Below are positions 40,121 to 46,229 of a DNA stretch of 64,000 nucleotides, piece by piece. Made by a program: the position numbers and the translations under genes. The notes under the pieces are model-generated. The model made no database searches. It was not told the origin of the DNA and saw nothing but the letters and a program-made list of their open reading frames with translations. The stretch is taken from contig NZ_JANHGR010000001.1 of NCBI RefSeq assembly GCF_026616205.1, positions 1,054,001 to 1,118,000 of the forward strand, written 5' to 3'. Source of the stretch: Halolamina litorea. GTDB lineage: Archaea; Halobacteriota; Halobacteria; Halobacteriales; Haloferacaceae. Each line of letters begins with the position of its first letter. Positions within the stretch are counted from its first letter, which is position 1.

Positions 40121-40468
40121 TCAGTACTCCTCGTAAGCCAGCGTCATCAGCCACTGGGAGAAGGCGTCGGACTGCGGGTCGACCTCCTCCTCGCCGATGA
40201 ACGGCGTCAGCATGTCCCCGGCCATCAGTAGCGAGAAATCGAGGTCGCGGGTACGGGGCTTCAGGAGGTAGGTGTTGTGTCCGTTGTACACCGCTTCCTC
40301 GCGCTGGATCAGTTCCTCCTCGGCAAGGGCCTCCGCGATACGGCTCCCCTTGCGCGAGGAGATGTCGAGTTCCTTCCAGAAGTCGCTCTGGTAGATACCG
40401 CCGGAGTCCCGGACAAGCTCCAGCGCCCGCCGCTCGTCTTCGCTGAGGTCGAACTCGGCCGCGCTCAT
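40121..40468 (-). CDS. Winged-helix DNA-binding protein
   Basis: 115 residues. Residues about 8-75 form a winged helix: ALELVRDSGGIYQSDFWKELDIS, a recognition helix SRKGSRIAEALAEEELI and a wing with EEAVYNGHNTYLLKP. The C-terminal about 40 residues (DFSLLMAGDMLTPFIGEEE) are haloarchaeal and of unknown role. It is likely a small transcription regulator. It is divergent from the glutaredoxin gene across 86 bp and could act there. Confidence 0.75.
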   Translation of the reverse strand: MSAAEFDLSEDERRALELVRDSGGIYQSDFWKELDISSRKGSRIAEALAEEELIQREEAVYNGHNTYLLKPRTRDLDFSLLMAGDMLTPFIGEEEVDPQSDAFSQWLMTLAYEEY

Positions 40469-40554
40469 ACGGGACCGTTCGAGGTCCGGTGGTTAAAGGC
40501 TACCGTCCCCGCGGCGCAACCGTTATCCGAGCCAGCCCCCTACTTACCGACGAC

Positions 40555-40896
40555 ATGAGCTCCCAGAGCGAACTCACCGAGGAGGACGTCCGTGATCGGG
40601 TCGAGGAGGCCCTATCGGAGAACGAGATCGTCCTGTTCATGAAGGGCAACCGGCTGATGCCCCAGTGTGGCTACTCCCAGCGCGCGGTCCAACTCCTCTC
40701 GCAGTACCGCGCGGAGTTCGAAACCGTCGACGTGCTGCCGGCGCTCGACCAGTATCGTACCGTTCTCGAGGAGGAGTCGGGGTGGGAAACGATCCCGCAG
40801 GCGTTCGTCGACGGGGAGTTCGTCGGCGGCAGCGATATTCTCGCGGAGCTCGACGAGCGCGACGAACTCGCCGAGACCGTCCGTGCTGGCCCCTGA
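40555..40896 (+). CDS. Monothiol glutaredoxin, Grx4 type
   Basis: 113 residues from ATG 40555. MKGNRLMPQCGYSQRAV carries the single active cysteine in a CGYS motif (CGFS in most relatives), and WETIPQAFVDGEFVGGSDI contains the cis-proline and glutathione-binding loop. These proteins bind or pass Fe-S clusters with a low-molecular thiol; haloarchaea use gamma-glutamylcysteine. An A-type Fe-S carrier is encoded about 700 bp away. Confidence 0.9.
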   Translation: MSSQSELTEEDVRDRVEEALSENEIVLFMKGNRLMPQCGYSQRAVQLLSQYRAEFETVDVLPALDQYRTVLEEESGWETIPQAFVDGEFVGGSDILAELDERDELAETVRAGP

Positions 40897-40913
40897 ATCG
40901 CGGGCAACAACAG

Positions 40914-40921
40914 ATAAAAGG
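40914..40921 (+). promoter_or_regulatory. TATA-like element downstream of the glutaredoxin gene
   Basis: ATAAAAGG is the AT block in the 110-bp gap before the 186-residue gene at 41007. It would give a leader of about 60 nt. The match is fair but the spacing is not diagnostic. Confidence 0.35.
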
Positions 40922-41006
40922 CTCGACGGCCTAGCAACCGACGTACTCGCGTTCCCGCGGCGCGCCGACCGCGGACACCCACACCAATCCCATCCCACAC
41001 CCACAA

Positions 41007-41567
41007 ATGACTGGTCGCGTATTCCGACTGCATTCGACCCTCGAACTGCCACTCGAAGATCTCGAAGAGTTCCTCGAAGACCCAGAACTCCCGCCGGAGA
41101 TCGACGACGTCGAACTCACGCGGCGCAACAACACCCTCATCCTGAAGGCTATCGCCGAAGACGCCGATATCGGGAAGTACACCCCGACGGCACAGCTGAA
41201 AGCCAGCGTCTCCGAGACGCGGGTCTACGAGGAGGAACCGCCCAAGACCGCCCCGACGTGGGGCCAAGAAGAGGAAGAGGAGATCCCGTCCGAGCTCGTC
41301 GAGTTCGCCTGTTTCAAAGGTGACCGCGAGACGGTACTCCAGAACAGCGCGCTCCGCTTCCCGATGTTCCTCGTCCTGCGAGAACTCGCGCTGCTCTCCG
41401 AGAAGGGTACCCTGACGGCGGTGCTCGAACGCGACGACGACCTGCAAGCGGTTCGGATCGTCGAGGGCGAAGAGCGCCCGGCCAGCGTCGAGGTCGTCGA
41501 GAACCCCCGCCAAGGTAACGGGGAGGACGGCGGCGTCAACTGGCGTGACAACGAGTTCATCAGCTGA
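41007..41567 (+). CDS. Conserved haloarchaeal protein, function unknown
   Basis: 186 residues. Two parts are visible: an N-terminal alpha-beta region (RVFRLHSTLELPLEDLEEFL, then RRNNTLILKAIAED) and a C-terminal region (FACFKGDRETVLQNSALRFPMFLVLRELA) after an acidic linker (EEEEEIP). No known motif is recognised. Base composition and codon use match its neighbours. A CTGGTCG-type recognition element is not evident. Confidence 0.75.
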   Translation: MTGRVFRLHSTLELPLEDLEEFLEDPELPPEIDDVELTRRNNTLILKAIAEDADIGKYTPTAQLKASVSETRVYEEEPPKTAPTWGQEEEEEIPSELVEFACFKGDRETVLQNSALRFPMFLVLRELALLSEKGTLTAVLERDDDLQAVRIVEGEERPASVEVVENPRQGNGEDGGVNWRDNEFIS

Positions 41568-41588
41568 TCGAGCGGTCCGTCTTCTCGG

Positions 41589-41948
41589 CTACCTGAACGA
41601 GAGCCCACAGCCACACTGCTCGCTCGCGTTCGGGTTCTCGATCCGGAAGCCCCGCCCGTGTGCGGAGTCGGTCAGTTCGATGCGGACGCCGTCGACGTAC
41701 GGCGTCGCCGCCGGGTCGACGAACACCCCGACCCCGGAACGGTCGACGACGGCGGCGTCGCCGGCCGACGCGACCAGATCGAACCGGTAGGACAGTCCGG
41801 CACAGCCGCCGCGCTCGACGGCGACGCGGAGGCCGGCCGTCGACGGGTCGTAGCCTTCCTCACGCAACAGCGACGCGACCCGCTCGTCGGCGGCGTCCGA
41901 GAGGCTGATCGTCGGCGCCGGGTCCCCGATCGTTCCGTGTTCGCTCAT
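41589..41948 (-). CDS. A-type iron-sulfur carrier (IscA/ErpA family)
   Basis: 119 residues. The three conserved cysteines are present: one in VERGGCAGLSYRF and two in SEQCGCGLSF near the end. Such proteins take Fe-S clusters from a scaffold and deliver them to apoproteins such as aconitase or complex I subunits. The N-terminal 12 residues are an acidic extension. It converges with the uncharacterised gene at 41007-41567 (21 bp between stops). Confidence 0.9.
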   Translation of the reverse strand: MSEHGTIGDPAPTISLSDAADERVASLLREEGYDPSTAGLRVAVERGGCAGLSYRFDLVASAGDAAVVDRSGVGVFVDPAATPYVDGVRIELTDSAHGRGFRIENPNASEQCGCGLSFR

Positions 41949-42507: not shown

Positions 42508-42604
42508 CCGACTGAGGCCAGCCGAAGGCCACTATCGGACCCTCTCAGTCGGCGTCGACGGCGCACAAAGCGACGGATCGGGCACAAGAACTTTGAGGGC
42601 CCCG

Positions 42605-42620
42605 TAATTACATGTAATTA
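42605..42620. promoter_or_regulatory. Perfect 16-bp palindrome next to a start codon (likely operator)
   Basis: TAATTACATGTAATTA reads the same on both strands and ends 4 bp before the ATG at 42625. It is a sharp AT island in about 70 percent GC DNA. A dimeric regulator bound here would cover the transcription start or the TATA position of the PAPS-reductase-like gene. The regulator is unknown. Confidence 0.7.
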
Positions 42621-42624
42621 GCCG

Positions 42625-43593
42625 ATGAGCGAGTTCCCTGACTACCTGAACGTCGACTACACGGACGGCGAGGGCGAGTCCCCCGAGGACTATCCGAGCC
42701 TCCAGCACAAGATCGAGAAGGCCATCGAGGTCACCAAACAGGGCCTCGAGGAGTACGAGAACCCCGCGATCATGTGGACCGGCGGCAAGGACTCCACGCT
42801 CACCCTCTACTTCGTGAAGGAGGTCGCCGAGCGCCACGACCTCGAAGTCCCCCCCGCGGTGTTCCTCGACCACTACCAGCACTTCGACGAACTCATCGAC
42901 TTCGTCGAGCACTGGGCCGACGAGTGGGACCTCGACGTCCACTTCGCCCGCAACGACGACGTGGGCGCCTACGTCGACGAGCACGGTCTCACCCCCGGTG
43001 ACGACATCGAGATCTCCGAACTCAACGAGCAGAACACCCACCACATCCGGAACATCCTCGAGTACGAGGAGGACACGTTCCCGTTCCTGCTCGACACGTA
43101 CGTGGGTAACCACCTGCTCAAGACGGTGCCGCTGAACAACGCCATCGAGGAGCTGAACATCGACGGCATCATCTCGGGCGTGCGCTGGGACGAACAGGAA
43201 GCCCGCGCCGACGAGACGTTCTTCAGCCCGCGCCACGACCCCGACATCTACCCGCCCCACGACCGCATCCAGCCGATCCTGCAGTTCGACGAGCGCGCGG
43301 TCTGGGACGCCTTCTGGCACTACGTCGTGCCGGACACCGTCGAGGGCTACCCCGAGGAGGGTTACGTCCCCGACAACGCCGACGACCTGCCCAACGGGCT
43401 GACGCAGGACGACATCCCGGTCTCCCCCAAGTACTTCGCCGGCTTCCGCTCGCTCGGCTCGGAGGTCTCGACCGAGAAGAGCGAGGACGAGCCCGCGTGG
43501 CACCAGGACTTAGAGAACACCACCGAACGCGCCGGCCGCGCTCAGGACAAGGAGGACCTCATGGAGCGCCTCCGCGACCTGGGCTACATGTAA
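42625..43593 (+). CDS. PAPS-reductase/CysD-like PP-loop ATPase without cysteine
   Basis: 322 residues. The ATP pyrophosphatase P-loop is MWTGGKDSTLTLYF (SGGKDS type, about 49-62). Further conserved stretches are VFLDHYQHFDE, IDGIISGVRWDEQEARADE and YPPHDRIQPILQF, as in PAPS reductase and sulfate adenylyltransferase small subunit (CysD). The chain contains no cysteine at all, so it cannot use the catalytic ECGLH cysteine of PAPS reductases; a CysD-like adenylylating role is more plausible. A perfect palindrome controls the start. It is followed by an oligo-T terminator and another PP-loop gene. Confidence 0.75.
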   Translation: MSEFPDYLNVDYTDGEGESPEDYPSLQHKIEKAIEVTKQGLEEYENPAIMWTGGKDSTLTLYFVKEVAERHDLEVPPAVFLDHYQHFDELIDFVEHWADEWDLDVHFARNDDVGAYVDEHGLTPGDDIEISELNEQNTHHIRNILEYEEDTFPFLLDTYVGNHLLKTVPLNNAIEELNIDGIISGVRWDEQEARADETFFSPRHDPDIYPPHDRIQPILQFDERAVWDAFWHYVVPDTVEGYPEEGYVPDNADDLPNGLTQDDIPVSPKYFAGFRSLGSEVSTEKSEDEPAWHQDLENTTERAGRAQDKEDLMERLRDLGYM

Positions 43594-43665: not shown

Positions 43666-44376
43666 ATGAGCTGGGTGAGCCTCTTCTCGGGCGGGAAGGA
43701 CTCCTCGTGGGCGCTCTATCGCGCCCAACAGGAGGGTCTCGACGTCGGCCGACTGCTGACCGTCCATCCCGCCGGGGACTCCTACATGTACCACACGCCG
43801 GCCACCCGGCTGGCGAGTCTCGCCGCTGAGAGCATCGCCCTCCCGCTGACGGAGGTCGAACCCGACGACTTCGGCGCCGACGACGTGGTCGACGCCGGCG
43901 CGCAGGGCGACGCCGAACTCGAACCGCTGGAGGCAGCGCTGACGGCGATGGCCGAGGACCCCGAGTTCGACCTCACTGGCGTCACCGCCGGCGCCGTCGA
44001 GAGCGAGTTCCAGACCTCCCGCATTCAGGGGCTCTGTGACCGCCTCGGTATCGACCTGTTCGCGCCGCTCTGGCAGCGCGACCCCGAGACGCTCGCCACG
44101 GAGATGATCGACGCGGGCTTCGACATCCGTATCGTGCAGGTCGCCGCCGCCGGCCTCGACGAGTCGTGGCTCGGGCGCCGACTGGACACCGACGCGCTGG
44201 CCGACCTCCGTGAACTCAACGACCAGTACGGTGTCCACGTACTCGGTGAAGGCGGGGAGTTCGAGACGTACGTCGTCGACGGCCCGCACATGGACCGGCG
44301 GATCGAGTGGGACCTCTCCACGACGTGGGAGGGCTCCAGGGGCCACGTCGTCGTCGAGGACGCGTGGCTGGAGTGA
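43666..44376 (+). CDS. dph6: Diphthine-ammonia ligase, Dph6-like
   Basis: 236 residues from ATG 43666. The PP-loop is SLFSGGKDSSWALY at the N-terminus. Later LHPAGDSYMYH-like and TGVTAGAVESEFQTSRI segments and the C-terminal LGEGGEFETYVVDGP match Dph6/MJ0570, which adenylates diphthine and amidates it to diphthamide on elongation factor 2. The family also has members of unknown function, but EGGEFET favours Dph6. A GTG 21 bp upstream is an alternative start. Confidence 0.87.
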   Translation: MSWVSLFSGGKDSSWALYRAQQEGLDVGRLLTVHPAGDSYMYHTPATRLASLAAESIALPLTEVEPDDFGADDVVDAGAQGDAELEPLEAALTAMAEDPEFDLTGVTAGAVESEFQTSRIQGLCDRLGIDLFAPLWQRDPETLATEMIDAGFDIRIVQVAAAGLDESWLGRRLDTDALADLRELNDQYGVHVLGEGGEFETYVVDGPHMDRRIEWDLSTTWEGSRGHVVVEDAWLE

Positions 44377-44488: not shown

Positions 44489-44593
44489 ATGTCACATCGA
44501 TCCATCCCCTGCCGCTATCACGACGACGAATCGTGCGTGCAGCCGGCTGCGACACGGAGCCCACGTGGAGCCTCGGAGGGGATCCATGGTTGA
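44489..44593 (+). CDS. Possible 34-codon leader peptide overlapping the nhaC start
   Basis: ATG 44489 opens MSHRSIPCRYHDDESC and continues to TGA at 44591-44593, ending 8 bases into the antiporter gene in another frame (the nhaC ATG is inside CATGGTTGA). The peptide is Ser/Arg-rich and has no hydrophobic character. Translation of it could regulate or couple to the antiporter start. It may also be a chance frame in the leader. Confidence 0.3.
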   Translation: MSHRSIPCRYHDDESCVQPAATRSPRGASEGIHG

Positions 44594-46229
44594 CCCCGGC
44601 GTGCTCGCGGCGGCGCCGCTCCAGTCGGAGAACTTCGGCGCGCTCTCGTTGGTGCCGCCGCTGTTGGCCATCGCGCTCGCGATGATCACCCGACGGGCCA
44701 TTCTCTCGCTGTTCCTGGGGGTTTGGTCCGGGGCGATCATCTACACGGGCGGCATGGGCGTCGTGACGACGTTGACGTGGACCGCCGAATCGATCGGTGC
44801 GAGCCTGTTCAACGCCAAGATCATGACCATCGTCATGTTCCTCGGCGCGGGTGTCGCGCTCATCTGGCGGTTGGGCGGGGCGTTGGCCATCGCCAACGCC
44901 GCCACCTCGCGGCTCGACTCACAGCGGAAAGTCGGGCTGGCGACGTGGATCTTCGGCATGCTCTGGTTCTTCGGGGACTACTCCAACACCGCCATCGTCG
45001 GCACGACGATGCGGGACATGGCCGATAAGATGCGGATGTCCCGGGAGAAGCTCTCCTACATCATCGACTCGACGGCCGCGCCGGTCGCGACGTTCGGCAT
45101 CTCGAGTTGGGTCGTCTACCAACTCAGCATGATCGAGCAGGGCTATCAGGCCGCCGGGATCGCCGGCGAAGCGCCCGGCTCGTTCGGCGTCTTCCTTCAG
45201 AGCATCCCGTTCAACATGTACTGCATCTTCGCGGTGGTCATGGTGGGGATCATCGTCCTCACCCAGCGTGACTTCGGCGAGATGCTCGACGCCGAACACC
45301 GCTCGTGGAAGGAGGGGAAGGTGCTCCGTGACGACGCGACGCCGATGCAGAGCGCCGAGGAGAGCCTCGGCGACGTGGTGACCGAGACGCCCCAACTGCG
45401 CTTCTTCCTGCTTCCCGTGGGCGCGCTGATCCTGGTCGTGTTCGGTGGGGCCGCCTACACCGGGCTGGCCGGTGCCGGCTCGGGTGCGGCGTTCATCGAC
45501 ATCGTGGACAACGCCGCGTTCGTCGACGCGCTCCAGTGGGGCTCGTTCACCATGGTCGCCGTCGGCCTCCTGTCGGGGGTCGGCAGCGGCCTGATGGATA
45601 TCGAGGAGGCGATGGAGACCGTCATCGACGGGTTCAGCATGATGCTGACCGCCATCTCGATCCTCATCATGGCGTGGACCATCGGCAGCGTCACCGGGAC
45701 GCTCGGGACCGGGGTCTACGTCACGAGCATCGCAGAGTCCATCGTGAGCCCCACGCTCCTGCCCGTGGTGATCCTGTTCGCGGCGGCGGTGATCGCCTTC
45801 GCGACCGGTACCTCGTGGGGGACGATGGCCATCGTGACGCCGATCGCGATCCCGCTGGCGTGGGAGATCGGCGGCAACACCCCCGAACTCCTGCCGGTCG
45901 CGGTCGGGACCGTGTTCAGCGGCGCCATCTTCGGCGACCACTGCTCGCCGATCTCGGACACGACGATCCTCTCCTCGACGTTCACCGGCGCCGACCACAT
46001 CGACCACGTCCGGACCCAGATCTACTACGCGGTGACGGTGATCCTCGTGGCGATGACGATGCTGCTGGTCTGGGGTGTCACCCGGATCACGCCCCTGGTC
46101 CTCCTGCCGGTCGGTGTGGGCATTCTCTACGGCCTGGTCTACGGGCTCTCGGAGTGGGACGCCAACCGCAAAGGAGTGCTGCCGCGGGCGCCGAAGAGCG
46201 AGCGCCGGTCGTCCCCGGCCGACGACTGA
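44586..46229 (+). CDS. NhaC-family Na+/H+ antiporter
   Basis: 547 residues from ATG 44586, preceded by a GGAGGGG ribosome-binding site; a GTG 21 bp upstream is less likely. About 12 membrane helices are present. Family motifs are WFFGDYSNTAIVGTTMRDM and FSGAIFGDHCSPISDTTILSS near the end, with ATGTSWGTMAIVTP before it. NhaC proteins exchange Na+ for H+ and support pH and salt homeostasis; some relatives carry other substrates. The leader has an inverted repeat at its TATA element. Confidence 0.85.
   Translation: MVDPGVLAAAPLQSENFGALSLVPPLLAIALAMITRRAILSLFLGVWSGAIIYTGGMGVVTTLTWTAESIGASLFNAKIMTIVMFLGAGVALIWRLGGALAIANAATSRLDSQRKVGLATWIFGMLWFFGDYSNTAIVGTTMRDMADKMRMSREKLSYIIDSTAAPVATFGISSWVVYQLSMIEQGYQAAGIAGEAPGSFGVFLQSIPFNMYCIFAVVMVGIIVLTQRDFGEMLDAEHRSWKEGKVLRDDATPMQSAEESLGDVVTETPQLRFFLLPVGALILVVFGGAAYTGLAGAGSGAAFIDIVDNAAFVDALQWGSFTMVAVGLLSGVGSGLMDIEEAMETVIDGFSMMLTAISILIMAWTIGSVTGTLGTGVYVTSIAESIVSPTLLPVVILFAAAVIAFATGTSWGTMAIVTPIAIPLAWEIGGNTPELLPVAVGTVFSGAIFGDHCSPISDTTILSSTFTGADHIDHVRTQIYYAVTVILVAMTMLLVWGVTRITPLVLLPVGVGILYGLVYGLSEWDANRKGVLPRAPKSERRSSPADD

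Follow-up and report, generated by a model that had tools for sequence, protein, structure and literature searches.

A class-wide palindromic operator in haloarchaea and its proposed role in sulfate activation by a cysteine-free CysD relative

Introduction

In Halolamina litorea, a perfect 16-bp palindrome nearly touches the start of a gene whose product resembles PAPS reductases and contains no cysteine, and the locus raises two questions: what reaction such a protein might catalyze, and which regulator would bind the site in front of it. We examined both across the window (the whole stretch of 64,000 nucleotides that was analysed), the host genome and 146 genomes of the order; the features involved are listed in Table 1. 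The reading that we favor, at a probability of roughly 0.55, is a sulfate-activation mini-regulon controlled by a ribbon-helix-helix (RHH) protein, in which the palindrome would be bound by this protein and APS would be made by a stand-alone relative of CysD. Orthologs of the CysD-like gene were found in 141 of the 146 genomes, which makes it the only broadly conserved candidate for the sulfate-activation step that is missing in haloarchaea.

Table 1. Positions, within the window, of the palindrome and of the features around it
Feature	Position	Strand	Basis
Probable BRE/TATA-like element, CACAAGAACTTTGAG	42583..42597	+	Just 5' of the palindrome; read from the sequence
Perfect 16-bp palindrome, TAATTACATGTAATTA, proposed operator	42605..42620	.	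Sequence and conservation
CysD-like PP-loop ATPase without cysteine (322 aa), proposed to activate sulfate	42625..43593	+	PF01507, CysD profiles, tree
Dph6 (diphthine-ammonia ligase), neighbor, not in the regulon	43666..44376	+	TIGR03679, 253 bits (cut-off, 197)

Results and Discussion

A conserved palindrome over the expected transcription start

The first-pass annotation had described a perfect palindrome ending 4 bp before the ATG, in DNA of about 70% GC, and had considered it unlikely to be there by chance. The site and its spacing were confirmed (the intervening bases are GCCG), while the GC content had been put slightly too high, the 2 kb flanking the palindrome measuring 66.7%. TAATTACATGTAATTA is unique in the window at up to 3 mismatches, and none of 100 shuffles contained a match to it. 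The genome scan suggested at that stage returned one exact copy and one copy with a single mismatch, TAATTACATCTAATTA, in the 3.02 Mb of the host, with few and irregular matches at 2 to 3 mismatches. The TATA-like regions of both sites have the string ACAAGAACTTTGAGG in common.

Conservation also argues against chance and for a real control site, as had been proposed. A site of the type TAATTAnATnTMATTA precedes the CysD-like gene in 74 of the 80 named haloarchaeal orthologous loci, ending 4 bp from the ATG in 41 of them and 6 bp in 28, and in most orthologs a T-rich TATA-like element begins 11 to 12 bp 5' of the palindrome. The orthologous promoters without it are limited to six, from Halobacterium (2), Halorubrum (2), Halopenitus and Haloparvum. 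The strict pattern, TAATTANATSTMATTA, is present in 111 of the 146 genomes of the order at about one or two matches per genome, the reversed pattern used as a control giving almost always zero matches in the same set. In G172, a relative that does not belong to the order, a near-palindrome, TAATTAAGTACAATTA, lies 6 bp 5' of the ATG (locus L293), so the operator site may predate the order.

We propose that a small regulon, spread across the haloarchaeal class, has the palindrome as its operator; our literature searches returned no description of such a regulon. The palindrome stands 3' of the TATA-like element and 5' of the start codon, and since it covers the expected transcription start, a protein bound there would block transcription; repression is thus suggested by position.

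The cysteine-free protein is closest to CysD

The protein belongs to PF01507 (E = 5e-18), the fold family that it shares with the assimilatory APS and PAPS reductases (CysH), and it had been labeled a PAPS-reductase homolog without cysteine. This label did not hold. The best NCBIfam model is that of the CysD subfamily (E = 9e-21), with scores under the curated CysD cut-offs (NF003587, 74.4 versus 195 bits; TIGR02039, 58.4 versus 396.6 bits), and in a PDB profile search CysD (1zun) was matched at E = 7e-38, compared with 1.7e-15 for APS reductase and 5e-15 for human FAD synthase. In the tree, the CysH reductases branch apart from the CysD-like protein with a support of 100/100. When aligned with CysD of Escherichia coli and Mesorhizobium, it has the CysD-type C terminus ERxGRxxD...M...GY(F/M) and lacks the ECGLHxG motif with the catalytic cysteine of the reductases, so that the comparison with CysD suggested by the first-pass annotation proved to be the right lead. 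Judged by sequence, the product is closest to CysD, the small, catalytic subunit of the GTP-regulated ATP sulfurylase (sulfate adenylyltransferase) CysDN; it is a relative of that subunit and not a disabled reductase. The missing cysteine is to be expected because CysD chemistry needs none.

The likeness to CysD (1zun, E. coli and the Mesorhizobium nod region) further includes the PP-loop GKDS, the motif GxRxDE...RA(D/K)E, the lack of a catalytic cysteine and the linkage to DUF2061. The haloarchaeal protein differs in forming a separate archaeal clade, in its extra insertions, in having FRSLGS for FRTLGC and in the lack of a recognizable CysN gene in the genome. The SGGKDS-type P-loop noted earlier is kept as TGGKDS, GKDS being invariant in the alignment of relatives. 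As first reported, there is no cysteine in the 322 residues, and the same is true of 74 of 80 orthologs; the other six have a single cysteine each, at scattered positions that are neither catalytic nor conserved, so normal PAPS-reductase thiol chemistry is indeed ruled out and none of these orthologs has the catalytic residue restored. The Fe-S ligands of APS reductases (CC...CxxC) are also absent, GNH and GSEVST occupying those columns. Since CC and GCxPCT are found in archaeal relatives (in G258, G285, G154 and G163) at the columns of NH and GSEVST in the haloarchaeal protein, the haloarchaeal lineage probably lost a set of cluster ligands, although the direction of this change is one that we infer.

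These features also bear on two other assignments within the fold. An APS or PAPS reductase using a thiol from a partner protein would agree with the Pfam family and with a Foldseek search that placed reductases first, but the predicted model is of moderate confidence (pLDDT 72.5, with a weak loop at residues 186 to 213), and the search returned CysD and FAD synthase alike and was not discriminating; with both cysteine motifs gone, a CysD-type C terminus and its position in the tree, we regard such a reductase as very improbable. An FAD synthase with the PAPS-reductase fold, adenylylating FMN, is hardly more credible, though the profile match to the human enzyme and a palindrome beside a riboflavin synthase gene might suggest one. 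CysD is matched far better, and the riboflavin neighbor is not kept between loci, where deoxyhypusine synthase-like and metE-like genes are found as well. Haloarchaea moreover have RibL, HVO_1015 (PMC8305020). A link to riboflavin and FAD through an RbkR operator was rejected on the same grounds, namely, the varying neighbor, the RibL already assigned in Haloferax and the CysD scores.

The closest named matches to the CysD-like protein are from Halolamina (95 to 97%). In many genomes, a second CysD-like paralog, about 55 to 68% identical, lies just downstream (L037:5101-6051, L068:5503-6453 and L110:5157-6098), and no palindrome was found before either of the two paralogs examined for the site (L297 and L298). 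The closest relative outside the haloarchaeal clade (G382, L289:3927-4706) adjoins a type I phosphodiesterase/nucleotide pyrophosphatase gene.

cysD operons in other organisms

Two uncultured archaea of family f22, outside the order, carry operons that unite the elements dispersed in haloarchaea, with the gene orders RHH-RHH-DUF2061-CysD-GTPase (G285) and RHH-RHH-TauE-CysD-GTPase (G258). For their GTPases, EF-1A models give higher scores than CysN models do, and the TIGR02034 cut-off is not reached, but a gene position next to CysD would agree with a role as CysN. CysDN has been reported in ANME-1/2b archaea (PMC6286981). The f22 CysD proteins resemble the haloarchaeal one in the tail ERAGRAQDKE...LRxLGYM and in the linkage to RHH and DUF2061, and differ from it in the cysteines CC and GCEPCT, replaced by NH and GSEVST in haloarchaea, and in the adjacent EF-1A-like GTPase. 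No palindrome was found in the regions upstream of the f22 RHH operons.

On symbiotic plasmids of Mesorhizobium, the gene order is nodBCIJ-type genes, sulfotransferase, DUF2061, cysD and cysN. DUF2061 also occurs away from cysD, the link being frequent and not exclusive, and literature searches returned nothing tying the two together. We suggest that an ancestral operon of RHH, cysD and an EF-1A/CysN-like GTPase, with DUF2061 in one case, was dispersed in haloarchaea, where the palindrome would tie together its scattered parts: the CysD-like gene, either DUF2061 or the gene for a tiny two-helix membrane protein and, in certain lineages, the RHH gene as well.

Sulfate activation in haloarchaea

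Sulfated lipids and glycans are known from haloarchaea, whereas the usual enzymes of sulfate activation and reduction are rare among them. Sat-type ATP sulfurylase (PF01747) is found in only 3 of the 146 genomes; the domain is absent from the CysD-like protein and from the host genome. No genome of the 146 has a CysN over the TIGR02034 cut-off, a count that could miss a divergent CysN, as the f22 partner GTPases also fall under it. Strong matches to APS kinase (CysC) occur in 8 of the 146 and to CysH in 3, with no strong CysH match in the host, and siroheme reductases (PF01077) are absent from the host genome and its congener. Assimilatory sulfate reduction as the purpose of the gene is unsupported for this host, which lacks PF01077, Sat and a strong CysH.

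Of the three genomes with Sat, two (G011 and G037) have no CysD-like gene, versus 4 of the 143 others (p = 0.004, a contrast that rests on three genomes), as would be seen if Sat were able to take the place of the CysD-like protein. Sat stands in one operon between a siroheme reductase and a true CysH in G025 and G037 (family f9; L257 and L256) and beside an APS kinase in G011.

From its family and its genetic linkage, the enzyme would activate sulfate with ATP to adenylyl-sulfate. Since the host has no siroheme sulfite reductase and no strong CysH homolog, the APS would probably serve sulfated lipids or glycans. The main weakness of the mini-regulon is that no CysN can be recognized, on which canonical CysD depends; APS synthesis by this protein, if it occurs, would proceed without the standard partner subunit. 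The more specific model of a stand-alone, cysteine-free CysD working without CysN (or with EF-1A), under an RHH repressor and with DUF2061 or two-helix proteins as membrane partners, is a tentative one.

The lack of CysN, the rarity of CysC and CysH and the missing siroheme sulfite reductase would also fit a PP-loop enzyme outside sulfur metabolism that adenylylates another substrate (tRNA, a protein or a small molecule), as would the scores under the CysD cut-offs and the near-universal presence of the gene, even in incomplete genomes of 0.9 Mb. Against this, the gene is tied to DUF2061 and RHH by shared regulation and by operons, much as in the cysD operons of other organisms, and it is missing from two of the three genomes with Sat; we consider a non-sulfate substrate somewhat unlikely.

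Genes that share the operator

The second palindrome of the host genome abuts a gene whose 62-aa product, MLPSSAPARADFHLLFIPLAL...HPPTEN, contains two hydrophobic stretches. An LLM flavin monooxygenase near this site was ruled out as its target, the site being next to the two-helix gene. Most other genomes likewise have a homolog of this two-helix protein (YDAVLAAIP..., ending in NPP or HPP) 3' of their second palindrome, as was the case at 17 of 20 further sites that were read. In two genomes of one genus (G067 and G051; L323 and L325), the second palindrome does not abut the two-helix gene.

In Halorubrum-like genomes, an RHH gene (form A, RHH-A; 66 aa) has the palindrome just 5' of its TATA-like element and is followed by the gene for the same two-helix protein. 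In several lineages (f3, f4 and f12), the palindrome or a variant of it precedes a DUF2061 gene (PF09834), and in G101 the palindrome, RHH-A, DUF2061 and the CysD-like gene follow one another in one operon. By these associations, both DUF2061 and the two-helix family would gain a pathway.

An RHH protein as candidate binder

Genomes searched with RHH-A have one match each, either a close relative (A) or a second form, RHH-B, and never both. RHH-B is of about 69 aa and 34 to 44% identical to RHH-A, and the RHH proteins overall measure 66 to 70 aa. RHH-B reaches the RHH_1 family PF01402 (21.8 bits versus a cut-off of 20.5), and the f22 proteins score 29.5 and 25.3 bits; RHH-A itself has no Pfam match and is classed as an RHH (CopG/Arc/MetJ) protein by its full-length match to RHH-B.

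An RHH gene is present in 109 of the 111 palindrome-positive genomes and in 7 of the 35 negative ones (Fisher p = 3e-21, which overstates the independence of the genomes, as losses of both follow clades). The two positive genomes without RHH (G002 and G133) are incomplete. Six of the seven RHH-bearing genomes negative for the strict pattern carry variant sites, complete ones in G144, G116 and G101 and half-degenerate ones by RHH-A in G064, G072 and G113, and the remaining genome, G111, has no detectable CysD-like gene. Contrasts within families lead in the same direction (G033 in f1, G010 in f10 and a split within f12).

A small RHH protein is therefore the likely binder of the palindrome, occurring once per genome in one of two mutually exclusive forms. 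Were the binder instead another conserved haloarchaeal regulator, the co-occurrence would reflect shared ancestry; this would fit the RHH-B genes, which lack the palindrome and, in 14 of the 20 loci that were examined, stand beside a gene for a GT2 glycosyltransferase. It is nonetheless an unlikely account, given the counts above with their contrasts within families, the two lineages with RHH-A under the palindrome and the RHH genes found next to cysD in the two f22 archaea.

Regulation by the RHH protein, if true, would bring into archaeal sulfur metabolism a repressor type that had no earlier connection to it. Together, the conserved operator and this named candidate make sulfur control in the class testable in Haloferax. 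CdrS, a haloarchaeal RHH regulator of cell division (PMC8406309), is likewise a small RHH transcription factor, but it is a different protein that adjoins ftsZ2 and binds mostly 41 to 110 nt upstream of the transcription start site (PMC8406309).

The proximity of RHH-B to the glycosyltransferase gene (e.g., L204:2886-4092) hints at a possible link to glycan assembly. The RHH and CysD-like proteins also share a near-identical tail, LRxLGY(M/L)(E) (L294:1078-1529, L292:3434-4036 and window 43561-43590), as in ...QLRDLGYLE of RHH-B and ...MERLRDLGYM of the CysD-like protein, possibly a shared binding or turnover signal.

Neighboring genes in the window

The Dph6-like PP-loop enzyme that had been pointed out next to the gene was correctly identified, scoring over the TIGR03679 cut-off, but its adjacency is incidental, seen at no more than about 27 of the 80 orthologous loci, and Dph6 was ruled out as a functional partner. 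Farther downstream (44586-46229) is a Na+/H+ antiporter family protein (PF03553), whose best NCBIfam models, Tet(35)-like and NhaC, both score under their cut-offs. Upstream, at 40121-41948, lies a cluster of a MarR-like regulator, a Grx4-type glutaredoxin, DUF7110 and an IscA/HesB-type Fe-S carrier.
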